A stretch of 64,000 bases of DNA from Myxococcus stipitatus (GTDB lineage Bacteria; Myxococcota; Myxococcia; Myxococcales; Myxococcaceae). The position numbers and the translations under genes are program-made. Shown here piece by piece: positions 41,698 to 45,202 of the stretch; the stretch's first letter is position 1, and each line of letters starts with the position of its first letter. Under the pieces are notes generated by a model, which saw only the letters and a list, made by a program, of their open reading frames with translations, was not told the origin of the DNA and ran no database searches. Location: contig NZ_JAKCFI010000009.1 in assembly GCF_021412625.1 (NCBI RefSeq), positions 62,001 to 126,000 on the forward strand, read 5' to 3'.

Positions 41698-42666
41698 GTG
41701 CCCTACCAGCCCTCCGAGCCCTTCCGTCCGGCGCCGGGTCTCGCGAACGAGCATGCGCAGACCATCTACGCGAACTTCGTGCGTCCCCGGCATGCGCCCC
41801 CGCTGAAGCGCGAACGCCGCGAGCTGCCCGACGGGGACTTCATCGACCTGGACACGTTCGACGGGCCTGTGGGCGCGCCGCACGTGGTGGCGCTGCACGG
41901 GTTGGAGAGCTCGTCCCAGGCGGGCTACATCACCGCCATCCTGAGAGGGGCGGCCCGGCGCGGCTGGGGCGCCACCGCGGTCAACTTCCGCTCGTGCAGC
42001 GGCGAGCCCAACCGGCTGGCGCGCTCGTATCACTCGGGTGACATCGGGGACACGCTCGTCGTGCTGCGCGAGTTGAAGGCACGCGTCACCGGCCCGCTGT
42101 TCGCGGTGGGCTTCTCGCTGGGCGCCAACGTGTTGTGTCGCGTGCTGGAGGACCAGGGGGACGCCGCGCCGGTGCACGCCGCCGCATCCGTCAGCGCGCC
42201 CTACGACCTGGATGCGTGCTGCCGCAAGCTGGACGGCCCGGGGCCCTTCCACTTCGTGTACCGGGAGCGCTTCCTGCGCACGTTGAAGCAGAAGGCGCGT
42301 GAGAAGCTCGCGCGCTTCCCCGCTGCCTTCGACGGCCGCGCCATGGAGGCCGCGCGCACGGTACGCGCCTTCGACCACGCCGTCACCGCGCCCCTCAACG
42401 GCTTCCGGAGCGCGGAGCACTACTATGCCGAGTCGTCCTCCGGTCCCCACCTGGGCGCCATCCGCCGCCCCACGCTGTTGTTGAGCGCGGCCGACGACCC
42501 CATGCTGGAGTCACCGGTCATCCCGCCGAGCGCGAGGGACAATCCCCAGCTGAGCGTGGTGCTCACGCCGCGCGGCGGCCACGTGGGCTTCGTCGGCGGC
42601 ACGGCCTTCCGCCCGACGTTCTGGGCCGAGGACGAAGTGCTCGCGTTCTTCGACTCCACCCTCTAG
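41698..42666 (+). CDS. YheT-family alpha/beta hydrolase
   Basis: 322 residues. Nucleophile elbow GFSLGAN (Ser), acid in SAADDPML and histidine in RGGHVGF: a full catalytic triad. VVALHGLESSSQAGYI carries the oxyanion-hole HG and NFRSCSGEPNR is a YheT-family signature. Probable carboxylesterase. GTG start at 41698. Its stop codon is shared with the convergent gene in a CTAG palindrome. Confidence 0.85.
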   Translation: MPYQPSEPFRPAPGLANEHAQTIYANFVRPRHAPPLKRERRELPDGDFIDLDTFDGPVGAPHVVALHGLESSSQAGYITAILRGAARRGWGATAVNFRSCSGEPNRLARSYHSGDIGDTLVVLRELKARVTGPLFAVGFSLGANVLCRVLEDQGDAAPVHAAASVSAPYDLDACCRKLDGPGPFHFVYRERFLRTLKQKAREKLARFPAAFDGRAMEAARTVRAFDHAVTAPLNGFRSAEHYYAESSSGPHLGAIRRPTLLLSAADDPMLESPVIPPSARDNPQLSVVLTPRGGHVGFVGGTAFRPTFWAEDEVLAFFDSTL

Positions 42667-43277
42667 CCGAAGGACAACAGGAAGCCGAGCTTCGCCGTGG
42701 GCCGGATGAGCCGCAGCGTCCACGGCTTCTCCTCCACGGGGGAGATGGCCTGCCGGAACGGCTCGTCCAGGTCGTCCATGCCGGGGCCGTTGAGCTCCAG
42801 GAAGCTCAGCCCGCCGCGCACGAAGAAGGTGATTCGCGAGGGCAGGCTCACCTCCAACCCGACGAGCGCGCTGACGTAGGTGTAGCCGACGCGCTCCAGC
42901 GAGGGCACGGGAGGTTGGGACAGGTCCGCCAGCCTGCGCTCCAACCGCCGCTCGTCCGCGGGCTGCGCGTGACCGAAGTCGAGGCTGAAGGCGGGTGTCA
43001 GCCACCCACGCATCGGCAGGAGCGTCAGCCCCGCGCGGCCTCCTCCACGGATGCCATTGTGGGTCCCACCCAGGTGCAGGCGCACGAGCCGCGTGGGACG
43101 GAACGCGACGGACAGGCCCGCGCCCTCCGGGATGCCCGCGTCCAGCATCAGGCCGAACGGCGCGATGCGCTCCGGGTCCTGCGTGGCGCGCCGCCGCGAC
43201 TCCAACCGCTCCACCGCCAGCGCGAGCGGAGCGAACAACAGGACGAACAACACCGTGAGCGTGGACACCCTCCCCAT
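42663..43277 (-). CDS. Secreted beta-barrel-like protein, unknown
   Basis: 204 residues. Signal peptide ~1-21 (LTVLFVLLFAPLALA). Alternating hydrophobic residues and the final FLLSFG, ending in glycine after an aromatic, fit an outer-membrane barrel. ATG 43277 begins the signal peptide. It faces the hydrolase gene and shares its stop. Confidence 0.7.
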   Translation of the reverse strand: MGRVSTLTVLFVLLFAPLALAVERLESRRRATQDPERIAPFGLMLDAGIPEGAGLSVAFRPTRLVRLHLGGTHNGIRGGGRAGLTLLPMRGWLTPAFSLDFGHAQPADERRLERRLADLSQPPVPSLERVGYTYVSALVGLEVSLPSRITFFVRGGLSFLELNGPGMDDLDEPFRQAISPVEEKPWTLRLIRPTAKLGFLLSFG

Positions 43278-43528
43278 CGACCGACTCCCCCACCCCAGCC
43301 CGCCGCCAAGCCTCGCGGCTCCTGACGTTTCCACCGGAGCACCCGATGGCCCTTCGCCTCACCGCGCTCCACGCCCGCCCGACATCCTCACCCTCGCGCT
43401 CCCGATGCCACACACGATGGTGATTCCCCCCCGCAACCGCCAACACCCCTTCATGAGCCAGGCTCCGGCGCCAACCGTTCACCGGAGCCCATCCCTCGCG
43501 CCCACGTGGCACCTGCTCGCGGACTCAC
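43278..43528. other. Left part of a ~1 kb gene desert
   Basis: Non-coding by appearance; the spacer upstream of the barrel gene, Cys/Pro-rich in every reading frame because of C-rich sequence. No promoter boxes confidently recognised. Confidence 0.5.
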
Positions 43529-44010
43529 GTGCCGCTCCCTCACCGTCCAACCGTCCGAACCACGACGCACGCACGCCGCACTACTTGCTCGCTGCGGCCT
43601 CGCGTGTCGTCCCTGCCTCGCCCGCCCCGCCCAACCGCGACACACGCTCGCGACTCCATCTGCTCGCTGCGGCCTCGCGTGTCGTTCCCGCCCCGCCGAA
43701 CCACGACACACGCCCGCGCCTCGATCTCCTCGCTCCGGCCTCGTGTGTCGTGCCCGACCTGCCCGCCCCGCCCAACCGCGACACACGCCCACGCCGCCAC
43801 CTCGCCCGACGTGACCTCGCGTGTCCTCCCCCTCCCGCCGCCCATCCGCGACACACGCCCGCGTCCCCACCGACTCGACGCGCCCCGTGTGCCCACCCTC
43901 CCCGCCCGCGACACACGCCCGCGTCTCCACATCGACGCGCCCCGTGTGCCCTCCCACCGTCCCCGCCCTCCCCACCCCGCGACACGCGCATGACCTCGCG
44001 TGCCGTCCCC
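43529..44010. repeat. Degenerate ~60-75 bp tandem repeat array with inverted-repeat units
   Basis: CGACRCACGC-like cores recur at 43563, 43638, 43704, 43779, 43849, 43909 and 43980: seven copies at spacings 75, 66, 75, 70, 60 and 71. Each is preceded by a C-rich stretch and, in four units, by CTCGCGTGTCG or a close variant, whose GTGTCG can pair with the CGACAC of the same unit. In the third unit the pairing is a perfect 9 bp (43742-43750/43779-43787). Two units also share CTCGCTGCGGCCTCGCGTGTCGT (split: positions 43587-43609 and 43661-43685). Units degrade to the right. Long frames open across it in several phases look like by-products. Confidence 0.75.
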
Positions 44011-44347
44011 CTCCCCACTCCACCCGCTCCGTCCCGGACGAGACCTGCCTCCCCACTCCAGGCACCGTCCCGCCCTCGCCGCCGCCCCTCGACGCGACCA
44101 CCCTCGCCCGCCCTCATCCCTCTCGTGGCCCGCGTCGTCCCCGCCGCGGAGAGAGGCGACAGCATTTGCCGTGCCGAGCACCGCCCGCTGTCGAAAACCC
44201 AGTGTTGCCATGGGCTTGCGGGGCCTCCCGCGTGCCGCGCGGACAACATCCGCCCCCAGCGGCCGGAAAAATCTCCGGGCTTGTCCGACAGCCGACCTAA
44301 CGTGCGGCGCCCGTCGTTCGCGTCGTCGACGAGAAGGAGTTCCCCCC
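44011..44347. other. Right part of the gene desert, upstream of lipoprotein gene
   Basis: C-rich, pyrimidine-heavy plus strand to about 44130, then ordinary sequence. GGAG at 44337-44340 serves the ATG at 44348. No gene seen. Confidence 0.5.
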
Positions 44348-45202
44348 ATGCGTCGGTCCGCGCTCAGCGCCACCTTGTTCGCCCTGTCCGCGTGCTCCGG
44401 CGACACCGAGGGCCCGGTCCCAGCGGTCGAACGCGTCCTCAACCCCCGCACCCCCGAGGCGCAGGTGACCCGCCTGTGCAACGCCCAGGGCGTGTTCAGC
44501 AACGGAGCCCTCCAGGGCTGGACGCTCACGTTGAAGGGGAAGCGCTTCTCGCCGGTGCCCGGCGGCGTGCTCACCGACTCGCCCTTCACCGAACTCCCCG
44601 AGGTCACCCTGCGCGGCCCCACCACGTACACGCTGCCCCGTGACCACGTCTTCTTCGTCGACGCGGAGACGCTGAAGGTCCACGTGCCCACGTCCTCCAC
44701 CCAGCCCGCCGTGGAGCTGACGCCAGGCAGCTACGCGGTGGAGGTCACCAATCCCCTGGGAGGCACCGGCGCGCTCGAGAACGCGCTGCTCGTGGGGCCA
44801 CCCGCCACGCTGACGCGGGTGGTGCCGCCGCCGGGCGGCTTCCGGTATGGCGAGGCCGCCACGCTCGTCGTGGAAGGCGAGGGCTTCCAGCCCGGCACGC
44901 TGCCGACCCTCGTCCTGACCGGGCCGGCGAATGACGGAGGGCTCCCGGACTCCGAGCCGCTCTCCATCATCGCCGTGGAGTCCCCCACGCGCATCGAGGC
45001 CCAGACGCGGCCCTTCGCCTTCGAGGGACATTACGACCTCGTCATCAGCCTGCCCGAGGGCTGCCAATCTCGCCTCGAGGGAGCGGTGGACATCGCCTAC
45101 CCGCGCCTGAGCGCGCTGTCCCTGTCACCCCTCACCCGCATGGGAGCGCGACAGGTCGCGCCCGACGTGGAGCACATCGAACCGGAGACGCACGCGCCAT
45201 GA
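44348..45202 (+). CDS. Lipoprotein with IPT/TIG-like repeats
   Basis: 284 residues. Lipobox ALSAC gives a lipid-anchored mature protein. Two or three beta-rich segments of IPT/TIG type follow: GWTLTLKGKRFSP, TYTLPRDHV and GEAATLVVEGEGFQPGTLP, each with the G..F motif of these Ig-like folds. It overlaps the next barrel gene by ATGA, so the two probably work as a pair at the outer membrane. Confidence 0.75.
   Translation: MRRSALSATLFALSACSGDTEGPVPAVERVLNPRTPEAQVTRLCNAQGVFSNGALQGWTLTLKGKRFSPVPGGVLTDSPFTELPEVTLRGPTTYTLPRDHVFFVDAETLKVHVPTSSTQPAVELTPGSYAVEVTNPLGGTGALENALLVGPPATLTRVVPPPGGFRYGEAATLVVEGEGFQPGTLPTLVLTGPANDGGLPDSEPLSIIAVESPTRIEAQTRPFAFEGHYDLVISLPEGCQSRLEGAVDIAYPRLSALSLSPLTRMGARQVAPDVEHIEPETHAP

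Follow-up and report, generated by a model that had tools for sequence, protein, structure and literature searches.

A degenerate tandem array within a putative G-rich, sigma54-type leader RNA of Myxococcus stipitatus

What is the role of a tandem array that occupies the gap between two divergent genes and has next to no counterpart elsewhere in its own genome? The array (43529..44010) lies in a window of 64,000 nucleotides, the whole stretch of Myxococcus stipitatus DNA that was analysed (genome G000), and consists of about seven degenerate units that are G-rich on the minus strand, the strand on which the array is better read. Judging from the comparison of genome sequences, we consider it moderately probable that the array forms the hypervariable central part of a long leader RNA, G-rich and of the sigma54 type, ahead of the gene to its left. 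Behind this reading stand a promoter-like site conserved in sequence and spacing, a strand asymmetry that begins at this site, a strand-specific hairpin (H2), turnover of the repeats in place and a recurrence of this layout in two further gene contexts, all of them observed in the genomes compared.

The array and its neighbours

A degenerate tandem array had been proposed at this position in an earlier, sequence-only reading, and its existence was confirmed by TRF, which reported 43586-43863 (period 75, 3.9 copies, score 297) and 43830-43966 (period 57, score 186), as against a highest score of 88 among 300 dinucleotide shuffles of 43280-44152. The roughly seven units with a shared core were recovered as well, their length being corrected to 57-75 bp. 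Six copies of the core CCGCGACACACGC (plus-strand reading) are 92-100% identical, with start-to-start distances of 66, 75, 70, 60 and 71, and a seventh, degenerate copy lies near 43564. This 13-nt core is the only constant part of the units; compared over 56 nt, the remaining whole units are 64-79% like their reference. Start-to-start distances of 60-75 bp and a constant part confined to the core agree with the earlier statement that the array does not fit CRISPR spacing, and the decay described toward the right also fits, right being the direction of the promoter-like site. Hairpin formation by the units was borne out for two of the seven cores: that of unit 3 pairs perfectly over at most 11 bp with the arm that follows it, and that of unit 4 over 9 bp with the arm before it, whereas in the other five only 5-6 bp pair perfectly. 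The fold check that had been suggested placed the array region only slightly ahead of its shuffles (z -1.6 on the minus strand and -2.1 on the plus strand, 20 shuffles each). Since the unit spacings are not all multiples of three, no reading frame is kept through the array, and a coding repeat was rejected. No Rfam family scored above its gathering cut-off in the window (best sub-threshold score 18.3 bits, cut-off 44), and no tRNA was found in the array region.

The suggested search of the array unit in its own and in related genomes was also run. Array DNA was found in a single place of the 10.1 Mb genome, together with one 34-bp match (E 6e-4). One of the 60 relatives searched, the nearest one (G016), matched the array part at length, and it carries about two degenerate units at the corresponding position; as each species is represented by one genome, array variation is seen between species only.

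The surroundings had been called a gene desert, which is inexact, the array lying in a gap of about 1.07 kb between two divergently oriented genes. The left gene (42663..43277, minus strand), downstream of the array, encodes a protein of 204 aa with a signal peptide recognized by eye and is a probable outer-membrane beta-barrel according to its predicted structure. The model, built from a 4-row alignment, is barrel-like at low confidence (pLDDT 69); the protein has no Pfam or NCBIfam match, and Foldseek gave no match at E <= 0.001, the best one (E 6e-3) being to a barrel domain. Homologues with 56-85% identity occur in 25 other Myxococcus genomes, and G015 has only a distant paralogue. The divergent gene (44348..45202, plus strand), present in 20 of 27 Myxococcus genomes as far as it was found, encodes a protein that by eye is lipoprotein-like and TIG/IPT-like, with no Pfam match and one weak NCBIfam domain match. 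Its C-terminus looks shorter by eye than that of several relatives, and in G001 the homologue of this gene (L081) sits away from the focal locus, without a promoter-like site. Upstream of the divergent gene, at 44263-44305, CCGGAAAAATCTCCGG ... CCTAACGTGC is conserved in form and resembles an ECF-type promoter; parts of it remain in genomes for which the search returned no divergent gene.

A promoter-like site and the G-rich strand

To the right of the array, a sigma54 (-24/-12)-like site, GGCACG-GCAA-ATGCT (44161..44175, minus strand), points left into the repeats, with a predicted start at about 44150. In the form GGCAYG-N4-ATGCT it occurs with no mismatch in all 24 Myxococcus genomes whose sequence reaches the site, 18 of them reached from the side of the left gene and six from the right; outside these 24 are G001 and G023, where contig ends cut the locus, and G015, which is without the locus. 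The distance between the site and the divergent gene is nearly constant, at about 175-190 bp (13 complete loci), and that to the beginning of the aligned part of the left gene, a point not identical with its start codon, is 81-841 nt in Myxococcus. Because it lies 81-148 nt from the left gene in the five genomes that lack the H2 module described below (G008, G009, G013, G014 and G019), the site resembles the promoter of that gene. Searching 25 other genomes of the family, we found 23 with a left-gene homologue, 14 of which were taken as orthologues by their high score. Nine of these 14 have the site when any base is allowed before TGC (seven ATGCT, two CTGCT), and the loci of the remaining five are cut by contig ends. 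The promoter-like site was found at none of the 20 paralogue loci examined, and paralogues of the left gene were rejected as carriers of this layout.

The sigma54 consensus is TGGCACG-N4-TTGC(T/A) in the parts available of two published accounts (PMC7910581; PMC4641369). Measured against it, the focal site lacks two T's, one at -26, a position that varies, and one at -15, where TTGC reads ATGC; the invariant GG-N10-GC and the GGCAYG are retained in all 24 Myxococcus genomes whose sequence extends that far. By itself the pattern is unspecific, with 28 matches in the window's genome (17 of them inside called coding sequence) against three for the reversed control, and a narrower pattern gave 10 matches in G076 against 10 for its control. 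A G-rich stretch (300-nt skew >0.3) follows a single one of the 28 sites in the window's genome, the focal one, and two of the 10 in G076, both at array loci. Of 14 genomes, 10 matched a stricter 19-base form of the site, 11 times in all; ten of these matches are at the focal locus, and the window's genome has no match to this form.

Upstream of the -24 element, at near-fixed spacing, lies an IHF-like site (44206..44218, minus strand) with three of nine mismatches. Over 38 loci the offsets -43 and -42 from the GG rank first and second among all offsets and strands tested, with means of 4.1 and 4.5 mismatches of nine, the mean of all offsets being 6.4 (sd 0.54). When the best of 20 offsets is taken for each locus, 23 of the 38 have 0-2 mismatches (three are perfect) and 15 have 3-5; the latter include L235-L237, second array loci where no IHF-like match was found at the fixed offset. 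IHF sites of delta-proteobacterial sigma54 promoters have been studied at -42, -43 and -79, according to the available part of one report (PMC3897727). An upstream IHF site is frequent at sigma54-dependent promoters but does not occur at all of them.

The putative leader region (43280..44150, minus strand) has 53% G and 22% C on the minus strand in this genome. On the transcript strand, the GC skew of all 18 Myxococcus genomes compared is +0.30 to +0.50 downstream of the site and -0.20 to +0.09 upstream of it, and in nine relatives the values are +0.30 to +0.47 and +0.03 to +0.20, respectively. All 27 genomes are G-rich on the transcript strand over the stretch from the site to the left gene, which is 0.1-1.3 kb long; in 22 of these leaders that strand carries quadruplex patterns, and the opposite strand has them in none of the 27. 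The focal leader has the highest skew among 96 gene-upstream gaps of its genome (mean -0.007, sd 0.117; gaps of at least 150 bp from crude calls over 464 kb, divergent gaps counted once per strand). Within 400 kb of sequence, an absolute skew of 0.38 over 400 bp was reached in one other region of the window's genome, at a 99-bp array, and in G076 at the focal locus and one long gene. Contig breaks fall inside this stretch in 8 of 26 Myxococcus left-gene loci and in 5 of 14 other orthologous loci, as would be expected of assemblies if, as we suggest, they break here because the DNA is G-rich and fold-prone; draft genomes may under-represent it.

Hairpins beside the array and turnover of the repeats

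The earlier suggestion of a structured RNA held in an altered form, since the conserved hairpins (H1, H2 and H3) belong to the minus strand and lie next to the repeats, not inside them. H2 (44036..44075, minus strand) has an inner stem UGCCU/AGGCA, the loop GGAGUGGGG and an outer stem of up to 9 bp. In an alignment of 15 phylogenetically linked rows and 14 pairs, 90% of the 210 cells are paired, as against at most 54% in slid-partner controls, and 21 cells show double changes; none of 500 shuffles reached this number or the covariation score. Three of five covariation measures beat all 500 shuffles, the counts of double-change pairs and of pair types being not clearly above them (281 and 50 of 500). 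The loop is identical in 13 of the 15 rows, with one substitution in G021 and one extra G in G020. In a 13-pair model the cells comprise 158 Watson-Crick pairs, 29 G.U, one A.C and seven others; the 29 G.U against one A.C make the minus strand the likelier RNA, and a plus-strand RNA with C-rich, anti-Shine-Dalgarno-like loops was rejected on the same count. As judged from this alignment, H2 behaves as a covarying, strand-specific structured RNA element beyond the controls. It appears to be undescribed: Rfam gave no match to H2, and our searches of the open-licence literature found no H2-like element and no report of this locus, the latter being weak evidence.

In 16 of the 96 family genomes a covariance model of H2 scores 56-67 bits; these 16 are Myxococcus without exception, and each match is at the focal locus, 15 of the 16 loci being the model's own rows and G005 alone independent; each genome has one strong match, and the next best match among the 96 genomes, under stricter filters, reaches 31.7 bits. 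H2 is present in 16 of 21 judgeable Myxococcus genomes. The other five lack the whole module, and since four of them (G008, G009, G013 and G014) form a clade nested within the carriers in a tree of the left protein, loss of the module is likelier than late gain. Nearer to the promoter-like site, H1 (44090..44137, minus strand; CGACGCGGGC...GGTCGCGTCG) consists of a stem whose loop, rich in G and poor in C, fits a quadruplex pattern; in an uncontrolled best-stem search, the best stem begins 27-44 nt from the GG in 12 of 13 leaders, that of G016 being different. On the side of the left gene lies H3 (GGCTCCGG/CCGGAGCC; 43461..43489, minus strand), at whose position the stems vary by clade with pairing retained, as seen in an uncontrolled comparison by eye. 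The 22 leaders of at least 300 nt contain 18 strong short-loop hairpins, as against a shuffled mean of 3.4 and a maximum of 8 in 100 rounds; nine of these leaders lack such hairpins, and G080 and G073 have one of another kind.

Outside the conserved parts, the sequence of the leader is completely replaced between species and between genera. UGGGGG-loop hairpins occupy the array position in G021, where the units differ by paired changes, and in G018, G007 and G006; another UGGGGG hairpin occupies it in G002 and G010. Relatives in g31, perhaps Corallococcus, and in g33 carry arrays such as GGGCGGGACGGGGCAGCA in leaders of 510-1298 nt, and two g30 genomes have shorter G-rich leaders. Simple decayed sequence, the fallback named in the sequence-only reading, covers one side of this picture, as the unit sequence varies freely across species; it is not the whole story, because composition, position, the promoter-like site and, in most Myxococcus, H2 stay constant.

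Five genomes each carry the G076 array repeat at one further locus, and at the edge of the array in every one of these five second loci lies a sigma54-like site that points inward. In three of them a GGCACGGCAGTTGCT site precedes a small gene and a PLD-domain gene, and in the other two a TGGCACGCGTGATGCT site precedes a helix-turn-helix gene (domains determined for one locus of each); these are two gene contexts and not five independent events. At the PLD locus of Myxococcus the canonical site was found in 26 of 27 genomes by a wider regular expression and in 22 by a narrower one, the missing genome being cut by a contig end. This locus has no array, and in 22 genomes its leader skew is 0.16-0.30 and its upstream skew 0.02-0.37, with no step at the site, which limits any general rule.

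Some further observations were made at these and other places. In the Myxococcus PLD loci (L287; L278-L304) a small basic protein, of 79 aa in the window's genome, is encoded between the canonical sigma54-like site and the PLD-domain gene. Two other tandem arrays outside genes were found in 400 kb of the window's genome. One (L172:17701-18227, G000:C9; 67 bp x 7.9) extends between an acyltransferase gene and a gene for an RlmL-like methyltransferase. The other (L189:16983-17276, G000:C6; 99 bp x 3) is strongly C-rich on the plus strand and directly precedes a lipoprotein-like gene, the probable start of which was set by eye; its surroundings showed no sigma54-like site.

A leader RNA, its alternatives and known systems

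According to the reading that we favour, a sigma54-type promoter with its IHF-like site (44161-44218, minus strand) would drive leftward transcription to 42663-43277; transcription from sigma54-dependent promoters requires RpoN and an enhancer-binding protein. The first ~115 nt of the leader would fold as H1 and H2, followed by the array, H3 and the gene, and the leader RNA would be continuous with the mRNA of the left gene. We conjecture that the length of the array and its G-tracts may tune the downstream gene at the level of stability, translation or transcription. Slippage and recombination in G-rich, hairpin-prone DNA probably give rise to the repeats, whose exact sequence would matter little, and the repeat part of the leader would evolve through expansion and loss. 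If this proposal is correct, the position, strand and composition of a leader are conserved across a bacterial family despite wholesale replacement of its sequence, and in these predatory, multicellular bacteria repeat turnover would be linked in a testable way with RNA structure and cell-surface gene expression.

Slippage in GC-rich DNA might instead have left a neutral intergenic minisatellite without any role, which the conserved site and H2 merely flank. Such a minisatellite would account for the poor representation of the array, the nearest relative having no more than about two degenerate units and a single one of the 60 relatives searched matching at length, as well as for the other arrays outside genes in this genome and for core and arm changes that, by eye, do not compensate each other within units. 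We nevertheless regard it as rather unlikely, as unrelated G-rich arrays occupy this position across genera, all 27 genomes are G-rich on one and the same strand, and opposite-strand quadruplex motifs occur in none of them.

An independent noncoding RNA that starts at the promoter-like site and ends before the gene, acting as a CsrB-type titrating decoy or regulator with repeated G-rich loops, seems improbable to us. No terminator was seen on inspection by eye, the five module-free genomes retain the promoter-like site beside the gene, and a strong short-loop hairpin is missing in 9 of the 22 leaders of at least 300 nt. Points that such an RNA would explain are the strand-specific H2 with its near-invariant loop, the UGGGGG-loop hairpins in six other Myxococcus leaders and the retention of the module in genomes that yielded no divergent gene.

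The GGCAYG-N4-ATGCT site might also be the operator of a dyad-binding regulator and not a sigma54 promoter, as its GCA-N7-TGC dyad character and the two missing T's of the consensus would allow, but the GG-N10-GC layout with an IHF-like site at near-fixed spacing gives this interpretation a low probability. Against an operator also speaks the canonical TTGCT at another array locus, whose Myxococcus counterpart has it in 26 of 27 genomes. An NmpR operator was rejected, since NmpR-type sites require GCA-N5-TGC, as stated in the available part of their description (PMC11841059), and the spacing here is N7.

A dispersed REP/MITE-like family, considered in the sequence-only reading, or a CRISPR-like one is very improbable: the core is short and partly palindromic and similar units occur at two loci in five relatives from two other genera, but the array occupies one place in its own genome, its spacing is irregular, its repeat is not constant and H2 has one strong match per genome.

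The putative leader RNA could belong to a class of G-rich repeat RNAs with sigma54/IHF promoters that the Myxococcaceae would carry in three or more unrelated gene contexts, composition and fold potential being selected and array length setting the output; we put this generalization forward very tentatively and consider it doubtful. If it were true, a short folded head (H1/H2 in Myxococcus) could precede a tandem G-tract array built anew in every genus, selection would keep strand composition and quadruplex or hairpin potential and not sequence, and the length of the array would control the output of a downstream surface or regulatory gene.

Some parts of the proposed layout are known from other systems. 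CsrB/RsmZ-type titrating RNAs carry repeated hairpins with ANGGA loops; repeated hairpins that share a loop motif are likewise seen in some Myxococcus species, whose loops, in contrast, are UGGGG(G) and irregular in this window. We know of no protein that binds UGGGG(G) loops. Further likenesses come from within the myxobacteria and from other bacteria. The Pxr small RNA of Myxococcus xanthus is a stem-loop RNA with a sigma54 promoter in myxobacteria; it differs in being a 108-nt gene between nla19 and Mxan_1080, with no repeat array mentioned in the available part of its description, and was rejected as the focal RNA on account of its different locus (PMC5568312). The orp operons of Desulfovibrio vulgaris share GG-N10-GC with an IHF-like sequence upstream, and the focal site differs from such sigma54/IHF promoters, as far as the available parts of their descriptions go, by the two missing consensus T's (PMC3897727; PMC4641369). 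A length-variable, G-rich leader repeat that tunes downstream genes is described, in the part of the account available, for tlpB of Helicobacter pylori, which is controlled through this repeat by the sRNA RepG (PMC8295292). In tlpB the repeat is a homopolymer, tested with 6-16 G (PMC8295292); at the focal locus its place would be taken by 0.1-1.3 kb of complex G-rich sequence together with conserved hairpins.
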